A stretch of DNA of 34,724 nt from an uncultured Caulobacterales bacterium (lineage in GTDB: Bacteria > Pseudomonadota > Alphaproteobacteria > Caulobacterales > Maricaulaceae). Each line of letters opens with the position of its first letter. The first letter of the stretch is position 1. The translations under genes were made by a program, and so were the position numbers. Below the pieces are notes generated by a model. It had not been told where the DNA came from. It was given only the letters and a program-made list of their open reading frames with translations, and made no database searches. The stretch spans positions 1 through 34,724 of the forward strand of contig CALHXF010000142.1 in assembly GCA_938040095.1 (NCBI GenBank), given 5' to 3'. This document shows positions 1 through 30,113 of this stretch, piece after piece.

Positions 1-674
1 GCGAATTCGAACCTCTGGCGGATTTTATCAACGTCCGCATGTTCGAAATTATAGGTCGATTGCTCGACTTCATTGCGGTGGAAAACGTCACCATAGCTCA
101 CGCCGTGATCATTATATGGCAAATCATAGACGTTATCGACGTCAAACACATACATGGCGAGCCGTTCCAAACCATAGGTCAATTCGCCCGAGACAAGGTC
201 GAGGTCTTGCCCGCCAACCTGTTGGAAATATGTATATTGGCTGACTTCCATGCCGTCACACCAGACTTCCCAGCCGAGGCCCCATGCGCCGACAGTTGGA
301 TTTTCCCAATCATCTTCGACGAAGCGAATATCATGTAAATCACGGTCAATGCCGATGGCATCGAGGGAGCCAAGATAGAGTTCCTGTAGGTTCTCTGGAT
401 TCGGCTTCATGATGACTTGGAACTGATAATAATGCTGCAAGCGGTTTGGGTTCTCACCGTAACGCCCATCCGCAGGGCGACGCGATGGCTGCACATAGGC
501 GCAATTCCAGGGCTTTGGCCCGAGCGAACGCAGTACAGTCGCGGGATGCAATGTCCCCGCCCCGACTTCGGTATCAAAGGGCTGCAAGATCACACAGCCC
601 TGCGCGGCCCAATAAGCCTGCAGCGTGAGGATTAAGCCCTGAAAGGACGACGGTGTTTTTGTTTCGGCGGTCAT
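1..674 (-). CDS. glyQ: Glycyl-tRNA synthetase alpha subunit, 3' end cut by window
   Basis: This is the catalytic alpha chain of the alpha2beta2 glycyl-tRNA synthetase, which charges tRNA-Gly in the cytoplasm together with the beta chain GlyS. I translated the reverse strand from the ATG at 674. About 224 codons are visible and remain open to the window edge, so the C-terminus is missing. The N-terminus reads [19 protein letters not shown], followed by blocks typical of the family: [64 protein letters not shown] and [11 protein letters not shown]. These are near-identical to the bacterial GlyQ core. glyS would be expected beyond position 1. No frameshift is seen. Identification is firm. Confidence 0.96.
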
Positions 675-8391: not shown

Positions 8392-9795
8392 ATGAGCGAA
8401 TTGGAAAAAGAAACGACACCAATGCAAACATTGGGGTGGGAAGAATGGGTCTCGCTCCCAGGATTGTCCCTGCCTGCCATCAAAGCAAAAGTGGATACAG
8501 GTGCCCGCACATCCGCTCTTCATGCCGTTGCGATTGAGCCTTTTGGCACAGATAAAAACCCGCAAGTTCGCTTTATCATGCATCCCGATCCATCGGACCC
8601 AACCCTAGAAGTCGTCTGCTCGGCCAAGGTCTTAGATCGTCGCCGAGTCACATCCTCAAATGGGTCGACGGAATTACGCTATATTATTGATGCAACGATC
8701 AAGGTCGCCGGCAAAAGCTGGCCGATTGAACTGTCACTGACAAATCGAGAGACGATGGGATATCGCATGTTGTTGGGGCGCTCTGCGCTCCGCAAGGATA
8801 TCTCCGTCGTCCCGACACTTTCCTTCCAACAACCCATCTTATCCTATGACGTCTACAAACGAAAACAGGGTAAAAAGACAATCCCACTGCGCCCGCTTCG
8901 CATTGGTATTCTGACACAAGAACCAAATAATTATTCAAACACGGAAATGGTACGCGCCGCCGAAGCACGGGGTCACGTGGTCGATATGATCTATACCTCG
9001 CGGTGCTATATGTCGATCAATGCGCATAAACCCGAAGTTTTTTACGATGGCGCGCCTTTGCCCCGATATGATGCCATTATCCCGCGCATCGGGTCGCGCC
9101 TAACGTTTTACGGTATGTCCATTGTACGCCAATTCGAAGCGATGGGTGTCTTCTGTCTGAACAATGCGCAACCTATCGGGGCCAGCCGCGATAAACTCCT
9201 CGCGCATCAAGTCCTCTCGCAGCATGGCCTCGGCATGCCCGTGACGGCCTTTGCAAAATCATCACATGATACGAAGGGTATTCTTGATCTCGTAGGTGGC
9301 GCGCCTGTTGTTGTGAAATTACTGGAAAGCACACAAGGCAAAGGCGTGGTTCTGGCGGAAACACGATCGGCCGCGACGGCGATCATTGATGCCTTCCGCG
9401 GGTTGAACGCCCATTTCCTTGTGCAAGAATTCGTCAAAGAAGCGAGTGGATCAGATTTACGATGCTTTGTGGTCGATGGAAAAGTTGTCGGCGCCATGAT
9501 GCGAACCGCCCAAGAAGGAGAGTTCAGGTCAAATGTCCACCAAGGCGGTAGCGTCAAGAAGGTACGCCTTTCCAAAGAAGAGCGTCGCGCCGCCGTCAAA
9601 GCCACTAAAATCTTGAAATTGAAAGTGGCAGGTGTTGATATTTTACGGTCTAAAAGTGGCCCAAAAATTCTCGAAGTGAACTCGTCTCCCGGATTGGAAG
9701 GCATCACAAAAGCCACTGGCAAAGACATCGCCGCAGAAATCATCGGCTGCATCGAAGCCAATGTGCGCACCGTCTTTAAAACGGCGGTAAAGTAA
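8392..9795 (+). CDS. Retropepsin-like zinc-protease domain fused to RimK-type ATP-grasp glutamate ligase
   Basis: Two domains are visible in 467 aa. Residues about 15-150 resemble the ATP-dependent zinc protease / RimB-like family (PF05618): a retropepsin-like KVDTGARTSALHA motif (33-45) and MLLGRSALR (127-134). Residues about 168-460 are an ATP-grasp ligase of the RimK family, with ASRDKLLAHQVLSQHG, VVVKLLESTQGKGVVLAE, FVKEASGSDLRCFVVDGKVVG blocks and the metal-binding ILEVNSSPGLEGIT. RimK adds glutamate residues to the C-terminus of ribosomal protein S6, and RimB-like proteases can counteract it; here both seem to be in one chain. Neither the ATG at 8392 nor the in-frame ATG ten codons on has a clear ribosome site. 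The downstream UDG gene overlaps its stop (TAATG). Confidence 0.88.
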   Translation: MSELEKETTPMQTLGWEEWVSLPGLSLPAIKAKVDTGARTSALHAVAIEPFGTDKNPQVRFIMHPDPSDPTLEVVCSAKVLDRRRVTSSNGSTELRYIIDATIKVAGKSWPIELSLTNRETMGYRMLLGRSALRKDISVVPTLSFQQPILSYDVYKRKQGKKTIPLRPLRIGILTQEPNNYSNTEMVRAAEARGHVVDMIYTSRCYMSINAHKPEVFYDGAPLPRYDAIIPRIGSRLTFYGMSIVRQFEAMGVFCLNNAQPIGASRDKLLAHQVLSQHGLGMPVTAFAKSSHDTKGILDLVGGAPVVVKLLESTQGKGVVLAETRSAATAIIDAFRGLNAHFLVQEFVKEASGSDLRCFVVDGKVVGAMMRTAQEGEFRSNVHQGGSVKKVRLSKEERRAAVKATKILKLKVAGVDILRSKSGPKILEVNSSPGLEGITKATGKDIAAEIIGCIEANVRTVFKTAVK

Positions 9796-20697: not shown

Positions 20698-22125
20698 TCA
20701 GGTCGAAGATTTCGTTCCCCCGTACCAATCCATGTCACGGGTTAGATACATCGTTGCTGCAATCGCAACAAAGCTAGCGAGAGCCCCAATCATAAGCGCA
20801 AAGTCGGCGATGCGCATCAGGACAAATAACAGGCCATAAACCGTCGCAAAGACACCACCCGCTTTCCAAATATAGGAGCGCCCGCCAAAAACGGCCCCTG
20901 CATAGGCCGAGGTGACGGCAACCGTCAGAGATGACGCAATCATAAAGGCCAATGTAAACCCGACGCGTTCAGCGAAAGCCAACAAGAGGAGGTAGAAAAT
21001 TGCCTGCGCCAAACCGATCAAAATATATTGCGCAGGATGAACAGGTGTCCCGACAATCACTTCGAAGAGAAAGTAAGCCAAAAAAACAAGCCCAATGAAC
21101 AGCACTGAATATTTCAATGCACGATTGACAGTTTGATACGGATTATCCGTATTCACGAATTTCACACGTACTGCATTTTGATCAATGCCGCGCAATACAT
21201 CGCTTGATTTCCCCTGCCCGCGAATACCACGAGACAGATAGGGCATTGCCCATTCGGCCGTGAAACCCGTTTCAGTTTCCGTCCGCGCGCTGGGCGTGAA
21301 TTCTCCTTGAAAACCAGGGTCAGCCCAATTTGAGCTCATCCGAACATCTGTAGATTTCGCAAAGGGTAAAACGGACAAGTTTTGCGCACCCGATAAAACA
21401 AGATCGACAGTGACTTCAAAGCTATCACCTGATGTCAAAAGCGTGGCGGCCGGAACTGCCATCCAATGCCCAAGACTTGGAAGCGCCGTGTTTGAACGAC
21501 CTGGAACAGCGGGCCTTACGATCTTCCGGTTTCCACTGGAATCAAATTCATATGTCGCGGACGCACCCGAACGAACATTTGTTTCACGCTGCCAAGGTTC
21601 GAAGGCTTGCGACACGCCAGTTTCGCTGCGTAAGGCGACGTCTTGTTTTAAACCGCGAACATCAGAAACAGATACGAGGACCTTCGCCTGCTTCATGTCC
21701 AACTCTAAACCTTGCGTCTCAAGTCGCGAAAGCGGAGCCTCAAAGCGAGCCGTCAGTTCACCCTTCACCGTATAGATCGGCACTTTACAAAGTGATTGGG
21801 TTTTTGTCTCGACCTCGACGGAGGTAAAGTCAGCCAAACCACTATCAGCATAGATGATGTAGTGACCTGTCTCAGTTGACCCATCAGATTGTTGCGATTC
21901 ATATGGAATGGAGAGGATCGGGCCGATGATCACTTGAGGACCACCATATCGGCGGCTCACATCATCTACGACCTTATTGGCTTCCGAAGAACGTTCGTAG
22001 CTGATCGCCCCGATAAACATGGCAGGGATCGACATGAGCAAGACCAGCGCACAGATTAAAATAAGTTTCAACCCTGCCGACCGACGTATTCCAGGCAAAG
22101 GTGCAGGCGGCATTTTAGATGACAT
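20698..22125 (-). CDS. creD: CreD-family inner membrane protein
   Basis: The 475-aa protein has one N-terminal transmembrane helix (about residues 18-42, LKLILICALVLLMSIPAMFIGAI), a large periplasmic region with the family block VSRRYGGPQVIIGPILSIPYE, and a C-terminal group of helices from about residue 330. This matches CreD ('cell envelope integrity protein'). In E. coli creD is the main CreBC target, and creD homologues respond to beta-lactams in some species; its molecular function is unclear. No creBC pair is adjacent. It ends about 137 bp upstream of sdhB. Confidence 0.9.
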   Translation of the reverse strand: MSSKMPPAPLPGIRRSAGLKLILICALVLLMSIPAMFIGAISYERSSEANKVVDDVSRRYGGPQVIIGPILSIPYESQQSDGSTETGHYIIYADSGLADFTSVEVETKTQSLCKVPIYTVKGELTARFEAPLSRLETQGLELDMKQAKVLVSVSDVRGLKQDVALRSETGVSQAFEPWQRETNVRSGASATYEFDSSGNRKIVRPAVPGRSNTALPSLGHWMAVPAATLLTSGDSFEVTVDLVLSGAQNLSVLPFAKSTDVRMSSNWADPGFQGEFTPSARTETETGFTAEWAMPYLSRGIRGQGKSSDVLRGIDQNAVRVKFVNTDNPYQTVNRALKYSVLFIGLVFLAYFLFEVIVGTPVHPAQYILIGLAQAIFYLLLLAFAERVGFTLAFMIASSLTVAVTSAYAGAVFGGRSYIWKAGGVFATVYGLLFVLMRIADFALMIGALASFVAIAATMYLTRDMDWYGGTKSST

Positions 22126-25156: not shown

Positions 25157-26461
25157 TTAAGGTCTTTTTTTATTTGCTCTTATTTTGGCCCAAGCCGCTA
25201 ATCTCGCTTTGATCGGCGCTTCGCGTCCGTCACCTTTTGGTGCGTAAAACGTCTCACGCGGCATATCATCGGGAAAATAGTTCTGACCAGAGAAGCCCTT
25301 CTCAGTTGATGGGTCATAGGCATATCCGTCGCCATACCCGATATCTTTCATCAATTTCGTTGGCGCGTTGAGAATGTGTTTTGGCGGCGGTAAACTGCCT
25401 GTGGCCTTTGCCGATCGCATCGCCGCTTTGTAGCCCGCGTAAACACCAACAGATTTGGGCGCAGTCGCAAGGTGAACAACGGCATGGGCCAAAGATAAAT
25501 CCCCTTCAGGACTCCCCAAACGCTCATAGGCCCGCGCCGCTTCGCTTGCGATCATCAAAGCAGTTGGGTCAGCAAGACCAATATCTTCACTCGCGAAACG
25601 GACCAGTCGACGCGCGATATAGCGTGGGTCTTCGCCACCCGTCATCATCCGTGCATACCAATAAAGCGCCGCATCAGGATCAGATCCACGCATAGATTTA
25701 TGTAGCGCGGAGATAATATTATAATGCTCGTCTCGGGACTTATCATAGGCAGGCGCACGTTTCTGAAGCAACGCAGCGACCCCCGCAGAGTTCAACACAT
25801 CTTCACCCGCGAGAAAAACTTCATCCGCTAGGGTCAGTAAATAACGCCCATCCCCATCGGCAAATCCAATCAATGTATCACGCCCACTCTCATCGAGCGG
25901 TAAGTCCCGCCCAACATGGGTCTCCGCCCGTTTGAGCAACCCTTGCAGTGCATCCTCGTCCAGACGGTTGAGGACAAAAACCTGCGCACGGGAGAGCAGC
26001 GCGCCATTCAGTTCAAAGCTAGGGTTTTCCGTGGTCGCCCCAACGAGCGTCACAACGCCTTCTTCAACATAGGGCAAAAAGCCATCTTGCTGCGCGCGAT
26101 TAAATCGATGAATTTCGTCGACGAACAATAGAGTTCCGCGACCAGACTCGCGACGAGCGCGGGCCGCTTCAAACGCCTTGCGCAAATCTGCAACGCCAGA
26201 AAAAACCGCAGACAGCTGAACAAATTCAAGATCGGCTTTATCCGCTAACAAACGCGCGATAGTTGTTTTCCCAACGCCGGGTGGCCCCCACAGAATCATG
26301 GACGACAATCGACCCTGCCCCAACATTCGCCCGATTGGACCGTCAGATCCGATCAGATGTGATTGCCCAACAACGTCATCCAAGACGGCGGGTCGTAAGG
26401 CTTCTGCCAAAGGCCGAGGCGCACACGCCTCAAGACCAGCAGATTGAAAGAGATTGCTCAT
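25157..26461 (-). CDS. rarA: Replication-associated recombination protein A (MgsA/RarA)
   Basis: RarA is an AAA+ ATPase of the Mgs1/WRNIP1 family acting at stalled replication forks. The 434-aa protein shows Walker A GPPGVGKT (59-66), Walker [17 protein letters not shown], sensor segment [13 protein letters not shown] and the C-terminal blocks [18 protein letters not shown] and [16 protein letters not shown]. Length is normal. It is divergent from the histidine kinase gene across 170 bp. Confidence 0.96.
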
Positions 26462-26631
26462 ACCGACTCTCTACCAAAAGGCGTCTACGGGAGATAGCGG
26501 GAAAACTGAAAAGACGGGGTAGCAGGAGACGAAATTTAGCGCAAAATCGAGACAAATCTATCGATTGGATTAGAGGGTTTTCCGGTTGTAATTTCAACGC
26601 ATTGCTAACCTTGTTCGGTTATCGCCTATAT

Positions 26632-28002
26632 ATGGAAACTTCATTTAATCGTTTCGAACGTTTTTTGCGCATTGATCGCATGACCACAAAAAGTGAGTTG
26701 ATGCGCGCCCGTGCCGTCTACTTCGTTGGATTTGCGTTCATCATCACCCAGTTGATCAATATTGTGGCGATGTATTATACCTATAACGGGTTTACATTCG
26801 ATCATATCGTCTCCGTGATTGCGTGTTGTTTCGTTTTTACAGCGATCATGTTTTTACGGATCAGCAAACGGTTTCAGGTTTATGCGTTCGCATTTTCTGT
26901 GCTGATCCTTGCGGGCACAGCGTCATCCGCGTTGAATCAAAATACAGGTATCAATTCTGCGCTACTTCCCTTTTTAGTTTTAGGTATTGTTATCAACGGT
27001 TTCATTTGTGGCGCGCGCGCCACAATAGCATTTGGATTAGCCTGTTTTATCGGGATATGGGGATTGTGGTGGGTGAGCTCGAATTACAACTATACGCCTA
27101 TCTTTGATGTCGAAAAATTCGCGGATCGAAATTTTCAACGCGCGGTACAAACCAGCTTAGCGGCCTTTCTCATCACGATGGTCGGGGCGTTTTTCTCGGA
27201 AAATATGCACTCCGCCTTTGGGGATCTCGAAGCAGGCATCACCGCCGCGCAAGATTCGGATCGCGCCAAGACAGATTTTCTCGCCACGATGAGCCATGAA
27301 CTTTTCACACCCATGAACGGCATCATCGGGATGAATGATATTCTGCAAGAAACAGACCTCGACGAAGATCAGCGCGAATTGACGTCAATCATTCGCGACT
27401 CCGGCCGCGATTTGCAGGCCATCATCGGGAATGTTCTGCTCTTCTCGCAACTAGAAGCAGGTCGTGTCAGCCTTGATGATGCCAAATTCGATATACGCGA
27501 AACCCTCGAAAAGACGGCCGAGTGCTTTGCAAATTCTGCGGCAGCCAAAGGGCTCGTATTCAAAACGCGTTTCGCCCCTACAATCCCGAAGGTTGTTGTC
27601 GGCGATAGAATACGAACCGCTCAGATTGCCTCTGCTATCTTAGACAATGCCGTGAAATTTACCGACACAGGCGCAATCGAACTCTCTCTTCACGGCGGTA
27701 CAGACGAACATGGCGACGTGATCCTGCTGATGACGGTAACAGACACTGGCATTGGAATCGCAGCCGAAGATAGCGCCCGTATTTTCGAGCGGTTCACCCA
27801 ACAAGACGGGTCGATCAAGCGTCGCCACGGCGGTACAGGCCTTGGTCTGACCATTGCACGCGGCTTAGCCAACCTCATGGGCGGAAGCGTTACTGTCCAT
27901 AGCGAACCGTCCATCGGAAGCTCGTTTTCGGTTCGCTTGAAATATGCTGTTGCAGACGCTGACACAGCAGATGTTGAGGCTTGGCAAGAAGCCGCAGAGT
28001 AA
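26632..28002 (+). CDS. Membrane sensor histidine kinase without receiver domain
   Basis: From the ATG at 26632 (456 aa) the protein has about five or six N-terminal hydrophobic helices (about 29-190), a dimerisation/phosphoacceptor segment with His222 in [12 protein letters not shown], and an ATPase domain with N-box [10 protein letters not shown] (337-346), G1 DTGIGI (371-376), an F box [12 protein letters not shown] and G2 GGTGLGL (400-406). The H-box has Phe where most kinases have Arg (SHELRTP). The C-terminus ends shortly after the ATPase domain, so it is not a hybrid kinase. A longer frame back to 26263 is antisense to rarA. No response regulator is adjacent, so the partner is unknown. 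Confidence 0.88.
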
Positions 28003-28073: not shown

Positions 28074-29561
28074 CTATTTCTTTAGATTGAATTCCCAAAC
28101 ATCAGCAGGGTCAACGCGCTGCCCGTTTCTGGATGTCTCGATATGCACATGCGGACCTGTGCTTTTCCCGCTGCTGCCCACTGTCGCGATTTGCGAGCCT
28201 TTTGAAACGGCCTCTCCCGTGACAACGGTATAGCCGTCCAAATGCGCAAACATTGTTAGCATGCCACCTTCGGTTTTTAGAGCGACAACATTGCCGTATT
28301 TAGTGTTTCCATTGTAGGCATCTGTCGCCGCGAGAATGACACCGTCAGCAGGCGCGTAGATCGGTGTGCCGGTTGGTGCGGCAATGTCGATACCATAATG
28401 ATTTCGGACCTTACCCGCCTTGAACGGATCAGGTGTAGGACCGAATTTCGCCGTCAACCGACCAGAGATCATAGGCGTTGTAACAGCCTTCCCTTTTGAG
28501 GTCTTCTTAGCTGGCGCTTTCTGGGAAGACGCTTCCTGCGCCTCGGCAGCAGGGTTTTGAGCGGGTTCCGCTGTTGCAGTTGCGGAAATCGCGAGCATGC
28601 CAACGGCTGTGACACTCGCTGCGACCACACTCAGCGCCAATTTATCGCGCAGCCGCTTGAAAGCTGGCGGCGTCCCGTTCATAATATGCGTAATTCTCAT
28701 CTTTTCGTTCCTTATACGGTGGGTTGAGAAGGCGGCGGCCGGGTATTCCTGTACCCGGCCCGCCATTATGTGGAGCGCTTGCAACAATGTGTCTGCATAA
28801 GCCCTCCGCATCTTTGGATCGCGACCCGCCGTAACGGCCATATCGCAACGAAGTTCTGTGCTCTGACTCCACGCGCCGAATAGAAGGTGCGCGAAAGGCG
28901 ATACCCAGCACAGACACAGGGTCACTCTTAAAACTAATCCGCATTCGTCATCCCGCCGCACAATATGCGCGCGCTCATGAGTCAAAATATCTTCAATTTT
29001 GTCGGCCCCCACGACCCCGCGATAACTCTGCGGGAGGAGAATATGGGAGTGTTTTTTCTGTCCAAAAGGTGTGTAGGCGAGCGGCGATTGGATGTGAGGT
29101 GACACAAGCACATCATCCTGCCCCGCAATGTCGGCACAATCCGCAGCCAAAATCACCCGACGCAAACGATGACGTCCCCAGCCGAGTTTTATGAGGGCCA
29201 GAAACACGCCAGAGGCATAAAGGGCCGCTAGAATAGTCTTGAGCGTTTCGAAGGCCCAAACGCTCTCATCCGCCAAAATATTTGCAGGCTCGTTCCCTAT
29301 AAAGCCCATCGCCTCCAATGGATCATGTCCAAAAAACCCAGAGAGAGAAAATACGGACAAAGCCTCTGCTGCAACGGTATTGGGTAGCAGTGAAAACAAA
29401 AGTCCAAATAGGGGCACGGCCACACACATTGCGAGCATCGTCGCCCAGAGCAAAGGCCATTGCTCGACCCGCCTATCTATCAGGCGAAATCCTGCCGCTA
29501 GCATCCACACCGCAACACTCACCACAAACATAGACACAAGAAAAATGAAGATAGCTGTCAT
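28074..29561 (-). CDS. M56 (BlaR1/MecR1-type) membrane protease fused to an M23 LytM peptidase
   Basis: The 495-aa protein starts with hydrophobic helices (about 1-26, 36-60, 105-127) and an M56 zinc protease motif HERAH (195-199), with Glu236 in STELRCD as the likely third ligand. Another helix (about 309-330) and a Lys/Ala/Pro linker lead to a C-terminal M23 domain: HYGID (388-392), AHLDG (439-443) and GPHVHIE (469-475), the LytM zinc residues. BlaR1 normally ends in a penicillin-binding sensor; here that is replaced by a peptidoglycan endopeptidase domain, presumably periplasmic. The BlaI-type repressor stops immediately before this ATG (TAGATG), so they form one operon. Databases do use the name 'M23/M56 family metallopeptidase', but I know of no characterised signalling role. 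Confidence 0.88.
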   Translation of the reverse strand: MTAIFIFLVSMFVVSVAVWMLAAGFRLIDRRVEQWPLLWATMLAMCVAVPLFGLLFSLLPNTVAAEALSVFSLSGFFGHDPLEAMGFIGNEPANILADESVWAFETLKTILAALYASGVFLALIKLGWGRHRLRRVILAADCADIAGQDDVLVSPHIQSPLAYTPFGQKKHSHILLPQSYRGVVGADKIEDILTHERAHIVRRDDECGLVLRVTLCLCWVSPFAHLLFGAWSQSTELRCDMAVTAGRDPKMRRAYADTLLQALHIMAGRVQEYPAAAFSTHRIRNEKMRITHIMNGTPPAFKRLRDKLALSVVAASVTAVGMLAISATATAEPAQNPAAEAQEASSQKAPAKKTSKGKAVTTPMISGRLTAKFGPTPDPFKAGKVRNHYGIDIAAPTGTPIYAPADGVILAATDAYNGNTKYGNVVALKTEGGMLTMFAHLDGYTVVTGEAVSKGSQIATVGSSGKSTGPHVHIETSRNGQRVDPADVWEFNLKK

Positions 29562-29942
29562 CTATGCGCCCTCGTCATTTGAGGGCGTATTGACTTTGAG
29601 GAAGGCTTCCAACTCGGCGAGTTCATCCCCCGAGAGGATATCGCTTTTGACGAGATTGGAGACGGGCAATGGACCCTCAAGTCCCAAGACATCGGCGGCA
29701 AAGCTTTGAATGAGTCCTGCCAATGTTGGAATTTTTTTGGCCTTGGCGCGGTAAATATTCAGCCCATGCGCCTCGGTTTGGCTCAGTAGACCCTTATCCA
29801 CCATACGCTCGATTGTTTTACGAGATGACGACCGCGACCAGCCTAAGTCCTCTGAAATCGCCCCATGTATTTCCCCAACACTCTGCGCCCCAGCGGACCA
29901 AAGGTGTTTCAAAATGACAAGTTCAGAAGAAGATGGTTTCAT
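29562..29942 (-). CDS. blaI: BlaI/MecI-family transcriptional repressor
   Basis: The 126-aa protein has the BlaI/MecI/CopY winged helix: SELVILKHLWSAGAQSVGEI, a recognition region SRSSSRKTIERMVDKGLLSQ and the beta wing NIYRAKAK, followed by a C-terminal dimerisation helix. In S. aureus BlaI is released from its operator when BlaR1 is activated by a beta-lactam. Here it is first in a two-gene operon with the M56-M23 fusion. AAGGCG lies just upstream of its ATG, and three GTCRCC half-sites overlap that region, which suggests autoregulation. The symbol refers to the family; the beta-lactam response is not shown. Confidence 0.9.
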   Translation of the reverse strand: MKPSSSELVILKHLWSAGAQSVGEIHGAISEDLGWSRSSSRKTIERMVDKGLLSQTEAHGLNIYRAKAKKIPTLAGLIQSFAADVLGLEGPLPVSNLVKSDILSGDELAELEAFLKVNTPSNDEGA

Positions 29943-29968
29943 GTCGCCTTATGGTGACATGCGTCACC
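29941..29968. promoter_or_regulatory. Candidate BlaI-type operator overlapping the repressor start
   Basis: Three half-sites occur at 29943 (GTCGCC), 29953 (GGTGAC, inverted) and 29963 (GTCACC), each exactly 10 bp apart. The last two form a perfect GGTGAC-N4-GTCACC dyad. The array overlaps the ribosome site and start codon of the repressor gene. It differs from the TACA-type BlaI/CopY consensus, so ownership is inferred from position. Confidence 0.55.
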
Positions 29969-30113
29969 AAGAGTCAATCTACATATTCCGTAAGGTTATC
30001 GCAATATTCGGCGAGCAAAGTAGCTTTGACATCAAACGCGTTCACATGACGGCTATTTTACCAATTTGACGCTAGACCTAAATCGCGTCGAAGCTTTCGA
30101 CAGAACAATTAGA

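Follow-up and report, generated by a model that had tools for sequence, protein, structure and literature searches.

The window analyzed here is the contig CALHXF010000142.1 (C142, 34,724 nucleotides) of an uncultured Caulobacterales bacterium, taken from a 2.7-Mb assembly of 214 contigs (GCA_938040095.1) that is 78.6% complete. Its minus strand carries blaI, coding for a BlaI/MecI-family repressor, followed by a gene for a single chain that joins an M56 membrane protease to an M23/LytM peptidase domain. A preliminary description of this DNA had proposed such a pair, and both genes were found where it had placed them, with every motif that it had named. They are read from 29942 to 29562 (blaI) and from 29561 to 28074 (M56-M23), with zero gap: the last base of the blaI stop codon is 29562, and the fusion gene opens with its ATG at 29561. 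The preliminary description had given no strand.

29562..29942, minus strand: blaI, BlaI/MecI-family repressor of 126 amino acids (Pfam Penicillinase_R, 62.6 bits for a cut-off of 22.6)
28074..29561, minus strand: M56-M23 fusion protein of 495 amino acids (Pfam M56 and M23; AlphaFold2 model)

No third gene was found behind the pair on this strand of the window. Unlike in BlaR1/MecR1 systems, no beta-lactamase or penicillin-binding protein gene was found behind blaI, and the 17 window proteins that were scanned with Pfam, a subset of the open reading frames (ORFs) of the window, include no beta-lactamase.

The fusion protein matches Pfam M56 over residues 150-281 (69.9 bits, cut-off 31) and Pfam M23 over residues 387-485 (101.5 bits, cut-off 28.7). 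Its AlphaFold2 model, computed from an alignment of 23 rows, has a mean pLDDT of 83.7 and a pTM of 0.61. As in the BlaR1/BlaI system of Staphylococcus aureus, and in MecR1/MecI, a BlaI-family repressor thus stands beside an M56 membrane protease. The likeness extends to the fold, since residues 4-284 of the model superpose on residues 1-293 of BlaR1 (8exs_A) with a VIA-align Z of 17.0 (234 residues, root-mean-square deviation 4.4, 17% identity). BlaR1 was absent among the 50 Foldseek matches listed and appeared in the second structural comparison; when the sequence was compared with solved structures, it was the sole M56 protein matched (E 1.7e-6). The excerpted text of PMC9834060 describes for BlaR1 the motifs H201EXXH and E242XXXD, with Tyr261 and Arg294, and an autocleavage at S283/F284, in a loop that blocks the active site. 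The corresponding features of the window protein are given below, with their conservation among the 73 fusions of the survey presented further on.

28965..28979, minus strand: M56 zinc motif HERAH, residues 195-199 (H195, E196, and H199 in 73/73 fusions)
28842..28856, minus strand: second gluzincin motif E236xxxD240, here E236LRCD240 (E236 and D240 in 73/73; compare E242XXXD of BlaR1)
28728..28733, minus strand: predicted autocleavage-loop site A277/F278, at the position of S283/F284 of BlaR1

H195, E236, Y255, and F278 each lie 6 residues before their BlaR1 counterpart, and the distance from the glutamate of EXXXD to the loop phenylalanine is 42 residues in BlaR1, in the window protein, and in 5 other aligned relatives. 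Across the 73 fusions R289 is invariant, Y255 is found in 71, and position 278, a predicted bulky P1' residue, is occupied by F (68 fusions), L (3), or I (2). The M56 part bears a complete BlaR1-type protease site, and the M23 domain, as the preliminary description had it, occupies the end where BlaR1 carries its sensor. No penicillin-binding domain was found in the fusion protein, whose C-terminus shows M23 only, and for this reason we do not class it as BlaR1. The NCBIfam model blaR1_generic reaches 38.7 bits for a cut-off of 400, with a match confined to residues 146-331.

28089..28481, minus strand: M23/LytM domain, residues 361-491 (Pfam and fold match; catalytic set H388, D392, H440, H471, and H473)

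The motifs HYGID, AHLDG, and GPHVHIE together supply this catalytic set. The roles of the five active-site residues are set out in section 8 of a review of M23 peptidases (PMC9662197), and all five are present in the window protein and in its orthologues from four congeners. The model from about residue 360 to 491 matches the LytM folds of DipM (Z 19.4), ShyA (Z 19.3), and LytM (Z 18.8). The domain thus shares its fold and, in the window, the full catalytic set with the LytM/M23 endopeptidases DipM, ShyA, LytM, and MepM, although the family models of DipM, ShyA, and MepM score far below their cut-offs on the fusion protein. We know of no M56 membrane protease in these four endopeptidases.

For the repressor, a profile of 16 BlaI relatives matches MecI (1sd6) at 3.1e-12 and BlaI (1sd4) at 6.9e-11. 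According to the excerpted text of PMC9834060, BlaI is cut at N101/F102, and the P1' residue is almost invariantly Phe in the BlaI proteins of BlaR1 systems.

29652..29657, minus strand: predicted repressor cleavage site N96/L97, in the column of MecI/BlaI N101/F102

The BlaI proteins of the window and of the four congeners have Asn-Leu at this position, versus Asn-Phe in MecI and BlaI, and the P1' column (F102 of MecI) contains 10 F and 6 L among the 16 relatives. Taken with the BlaR1-like features of the fusion described above, cleavage of BlaI by the M56 domain is likely.

We surveyed 299 genomes of the order with a profile built from the five congeneric proteins (E <= 1e-35, a threshold that misses more distant fusions such as that of genome G006, see below). 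Matches were found in 76 genomes (79 rows), and the DNA of all rows was read, giving 77 loci. An M56-M23 fusion is encoded at 73 of these, in 73 genomes, and an M56 protein without M23 at the other four; BlaI, M56, and M23 were recognized in these loci with profiles built from these same sequences. The linkage that the preliminary description had expected in related genomes holds throughout: in 73/73 fusion loci blaI stands ahead of the fusion and on its strand, which rules out a chance adjacency. The distance from the blaI stop to the fusion start ranges from -16 to +3 nt in 67 of them, 50 of which are 4-nt overlaps. In four others the mechanically called ORF start extends back into blaI on the same strand, and in two (L145 in G078 and L146 in G175) blaI and the fusion are separated by an M56 gene that lacks M23; the intervening protein of G078 bears a coiled-coil-like tail instead of M23. 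Within the genus, the fusions of the four other carriers are 44-62% identical to that of the window, and all five carriers have blaI directly before the fusion and the same gene order. In a class-wide sample, 2 of the 385 genomes scored above the threshold, both from the window's order; weaker relatives may exist elsewhere in the class. In a scan of genome contigs, a relative of the M56 part turned up at 26 loci. Among these are loci of Erythrobacter rubeus and E. ani with both blaI and M56-M23, the E. ani gene being present as two ORFs. Other M56 proteins of the order, with TonB_C, coiled-coil-like, or short C-termini, share with the fusion the BlaI neighbor and the M56 core and, unlike it, have no M23.

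The catalytic set of the M23 domain is less uniform across the family. It reads HDHHH in 41 of the 73 fusions, whereas H440 (the position of His260 in LytM) is Gln in 29 and H471 is Gln in one. In two fusions of a single starred clade (L206 in G272 and L217 in G145), every zinc ligand is replaced and the zinc site is lost, and their M56 site and preceding blaI are intact; this is, by its residues, a predicted pseudoenzyme clade. The histidine equivalent to H440 may help to activate water (PMC9662197). Judging by the starred branches of a quick tree, which does not resolve direction, the His/Gln state has changed at least three times. All 73 loci, including those with an altered M23, keep the residues of the M56 site and a blaI ahead of the fusion. 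Hence, the cutting predicted for M23 is probably not universal across the family. An altered or zinc-less M23 that retains its fold and its linkage fits a binding or input role, and since the place of M23 in the circuit appears to outlive its chemistry in some lineages, these data favor a binding or sensing role across the family.

The region upstream of blaI contains the following elements.

29972..29977, minus strand: -35-like TTGACT, a putative promoter element (consensus and conservation)
29953..29968, minus strand: BlaI-type operator dyad GGTGACGCATGTCACC, between the -35 and -10 elements, kept in the five congeneric loci
29943..29958, minus strand: second, overlapping element GTCACCATAAGGCGAC, with the -10-like CCATAA (29949-29954) and, directly against the start codon, a third half-site

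The five congeners share upstream of blaI the block TTGAC...GGYGAC-N4-GTCACC-ATNN-RGYGAC-ATG, with little else conserved, and TTGAC is found at the same distance from the -10-like CCATNN in all five and also in Erythrobacter rubeus. A 17-bp spacer separates the TTGACN hexamer from CCATNN. Because the start codon comes only 6 bp after this -10-like element, transcription would start at or near the ATG, and the blaI mRNA is probably leaderless, with the operator inside the promoter. This operator, GGTGAC-N4-GTCACC, differs from those of the BlaR1/MecR1 systems. The ACA-N2-TGT core, which we take to be that of the known bla/mec operators, is found before blaI in 23 of the 33 loci of the subgroup (shuffled mean 0.8, maximum 4); 30 of these loci have M23 and 3 do not, and two have little upstream DNA. 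It is also found in all 23 paralogous loci of the genus (shuffled mean 1.0, maximum 4). The genome of the window itself holds two other BlaI-M56 pairs (L001 and L002), in which M23 was not found. The flanks of the operators vary by paralogue (GACTACA, ACGACA, GTGACA), which suggests that the paralogous BlaI circuits are insulated from one another.

Nine genomes were searched for the exact sequence GTCACCATNNRGYGAC: it stands at the blaI of each of the five carriers, and there are two further matches, one in G003 and one in G007, the latter a genome without the system. A looser search, with an 18-bp operator pattern and up to 1 mismatch, gave 7-11 matches per carrier genome (n=5) and 1-5 per other genome (n=4), the reversed-pattern control giving 0-1, and we read the sites of the carrier genomes. 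Of the 37 non-self near-operators of the five carriers, 35 fall within ORFs of 120 amino acids or more, as called mechanically, and one of these sites (L197 in G015) also touches the start of another ORF. The remaining two are intergenic and of the paralogous ACGACA class: one is at the paralogous blaI of the window genome and the other at a DUF2807-like gene in G016. These counts led us to reject a wider BlaI regulon in the genus. At up to 1 mismatch, no intergenic operator of the system's own class was recognized elsewhere in the five carrier genomes, and hence BlaI probably has no target in the genus other than its own operon, while gaps in the assemblies and more degenerate sites leave room for others. 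The site in G016 (L204, G016:C1:222548) is a dyad 34 nt before a gene that codes, by eye, for a DUF2807-like secreted protein; it lies about 2.4 kb from a type-A blaI, and a similar-looking ORF stands beside the type-A pair of the window genome (L001).

We consider it an even bet that the fusion is a BlaR1-type receptor in which the penicillin sensor has been replaced by M23, the latter acting as a probe of the wall and, in this genus, also as the output. BlaI sitting on the operator inside its own promoter would keep the operon shut, and the M56 membrane domain would be restrained by the autocleavage loop, as in BlaR1. The M23/LytM domain, periplasmic in the predicted topology and in place of the penicillin sensor, would engage stem peptides or crosslinks of the peptidoglycan, and this engagement would be the input to M56. 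A cell-wall signal would then free M56, BlaI would be cut at the predicted N96/L97, and the operon would turn on. In this genus, with its complete catalytic set, the additional M23 endopeptidase produced once the operon is derepressed would also be the main output, and signal peptidase would shed the M23 domain, as it does with the BlaR1 sensor. The endopeptidase could also feed a pathway from wall dipeptide to BlaI, given a published model in which a wall dipeptide binds BlaI directly (PMC3305447, in the excerpted text). A peptidase in place of the penicillin sensor, encoded behind the repressor that the protein probably destroys, points to a circuit that acts on the cell wall, by reading or remodeling it, and not to one that detects an antibiotic; the stimulus of the BlaR1 homologue of Mycobacterium tuberculosis is described as unclear in the excerpted text of PMC9834060. 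If the reading is correct, it would constitute a Gram-negative route for controlling a wall-cutting enzyme via repressor proteolysis. With a wall peptidase where the sensor would be, and blaI ahead of it at every fusion locus read, one can test whether such a receptor reads wall structure directly.

Several observations weigh against this interpretation. A full-length orthologue is found in only 5 of the 18 genomes of the genus, the window's included, and the system is therefore dispensable there. The operator core of the window (ACG-CA-TGT) is one base off ACA-N2-TGT, within a perfect GGTGAC/GTCACC dyad, and the P1' residue of its repressor is Leu. The spacing of the autocleavage loop is that of BlaR1 in only 6 of the 23 aligned relatives and is 37-50 residues in the other 17. 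The linker is mostly disordered in the model (pLDDT below 50 at residues 333-340 and 346-360) and its length differs between congeners, which makes it poor for tight mechanical coupling. The disordered linker, a signal-peptidase-like motif, and the lack of a second recognized intergenic operator of the system's own class in the five genomes would be just as compatible with M23 as the regulated product. The suggestion of the preliminary description, that M23 may sense or cut peptidoglycan and so couple wall damage to derepression through M56, is thus supported in part.

The alternative that survives best, which we nonetheless find rather unlikely, takes M23 as nothing but this product: M56 would sense via its own loops or helices and cut BlaI, and signal peptidase would free a periplasmic M23, with no crosstalk between the two domains. 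It is in line with an operon that seems to be its own target, with the complete catalytic set of the window and the four congeners, and with the disordered linker. It also draws on the end of the last helix, after which, as in BlaR1, the C-terminal domain follows a possible signal peptidase site.

28572..28652, minus strand: last transmembrane helix, residues 304-330 (model helix H304-330; hydropathy window 308-326)
28569..28577, minus strand: signal-peptidase-like A329-T-A331 at the helix end (compare the SpsB cut of BlaR1 at the equivalent linker)

Of the 73 fusions, 60 have an AxA motif close to where the last helix ends, for a permuted mean of 36.7 and a maximum of 47 (300 permutations). 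This count used a slightly different helix finder from that of a first set and covered the fusions alone, without the control set lacking M23. In the first set the motif was found in 21 of 32 fusions (permuted mean 13.6, maximum 19); 9 rows had been dropped beforehand (genes duplicated across loci, a truncated piece of G006, and L140, a near-copy of L134), and 9 further rows fell out as their last helix was not recognizable. The motif is not enriched in proteobacterial M56 proteins without M23, including those of the order that were tested (5/18, permuted mean 8.4), and is found in 4 of 8 M56 proteins from other phyla (permuted mean 2.8). Because the rows are related, these counts from permutation should not be taken as probabilities. 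The motif looks like a signal peptidase site, and by analogy with BlaR1 the M23 domain is probably shed. The excerpted text of PMC9834060 places the cut of BlaR1 by the signal peptidase SpsB after Gly331, in the stretch that links the last helix to the sensor. Because a genuine BlaR1 sensor is shed at the equivalent place, the motif fits a shed sensor and a released enzyme alike, and we rejected it as proof of the latter. Moreover, a role as mere product sits poorly with the 29 fusions that lack the catalytic His and the two that lack the zinc site, yet have kept both the fusion and blaI.

Those same variants argue for an opposite and improbable alternative, in which M23 is only a sensor or binding domain that reports the state of the wall to M56, while BlaI controls effector genes elsewhere. 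The domain occupies the sensor position of BlaR1, and the repeated His/Gln changes and the zinc-less clade leave blaI ahead in all cases. In other lineages some candidate targets were found. We read all 16 non-self near-operator sites of 16 genomes: upstream of an ORF that is TonB-like by eye, the dyad TGCTACATATGTCGCA stands at 115 and 230 nt (L271 in G297 and L272 in G036, of one genus), and near-operators lie 32 and 25 nt before ORFs that are RND-pump-like by eye (L282 in G171 and L278 in G277, of two families). Three further sites, identical in sequence, fall in one shared reading frame, by eye that of a MoxR-like ATPase. However, such distant sites are few; in genus g40 the reversed-pattern control gives 2 matches per genome versus 1-3 real ones, and the G171 site, perhaps due to chance, was not found in three sister genomes. 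We rejected a regulon in the other lineages and take the TonB-like and RND-like sites as leads only. Within the genus of the window, the absence of another recognized intergenic operator of the own class in the five genomes, and an M23 that retains every catalytic residue, likewise argue against this alternative.

The last alternative, a beta-lactam response system in which the sensor alone was swapped and M23 or M56 would respond indirectly to beta-lactam damage and induce resistance, is very improbable: it has on its side the homology to BlaR1/BlaI and the wall-dipeptide model of PMC3305447 (in the excerpted text), but we found no beta-lactamase among the scanned proteins, no third gene behind the pair, and no penicillin-binding domain in the fusion protein.

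The receptor reading may be extended to the order, as a proposal that we hold at somewhat less than an even chance. LytM would there replace the penicillin sensor in a whole family of receptors that probe their own wall; members of the enzyme type would both read and cut, and thus be their own output, while members with an altered or lost active site would be sensors only. If so, the family would provide a natural series from enzyme to pseudoenzyme sensor within one signaling circuit.

The architecture itself is probably not new, as the preliminary description had supposed, because the M23 review (PMC9662197) names M56 among the rare partners of M23. In the text excerpted from it, M56 is one of the other catalytic domains that jointly accompany M23 in less than 1% of hits, and its role in wall cleavage is said not to have been shown; that text concerns proteins with the same two domains and does not treat a repressor, an operator, or a mechanism. 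In searches of open-licence full texts, judged for the most part by their listings, we recognized no paper on a BlaI-linked M56-M23 system.

A further question is whether the fusion arose once. Genome G006, of the same genus, encodes an M56 protein of 805 amino acids from another subgroup, with M23 at its far end. In a quick tree built on M56 segments, with 68 rows and 142 columns, the presence of M23 needs 5 label changes, at least two of them forced by starred branches, and the G006 fusion falls inside a 99-starred group otherwise without M23. Eight rows of duplicate-locus or near-copy type were omitted from this tree, and one row that was kept, a truncated piece of the G006 gene labeled as lacking M23, did not belong in it. 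Several rows of the G006 group end at the edge of their locus, where a whole-genome search shows no adjoining M23 match. Since the G006 fusion groups with M56 proteins without M23, the tree tentatively opposes a single origin, and M23 may have been recruited more than once. Some fusions are longer, of about 720-880 amino acids (L124, L125, L130, L132, L134, and similar), with some 240-370 extra residues behind M23; in the three that were scanned (L124, L125, and L134), this region has no Pfam match above cut-off.

We also considered a defense system, which was rejected: PADLOC gave nothing for the protease and matched BlaI weakly to Csa3 (16.4 bits). Among the neighbors of the operon, a histidine kinase gene (26455-28002, plus strand; HisKA and HATPase_c) converges on it from downstream, and the Pfam scan showed no receiver domain in its product. 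About 6 kb from the operon, a gene at 20698-22125 (minus strand) codes for an inner membrane protein of the CreD family (Pfam CreD, 372.9 bits); in other bacteria, CreD belongs to a regulon that responds to beta-lactams. Further away, in a single ORF at 8392-9795 (plus strand), a complete RimK ligase is fused to a putative ATP-dependent zinc protease domain (PF05618).

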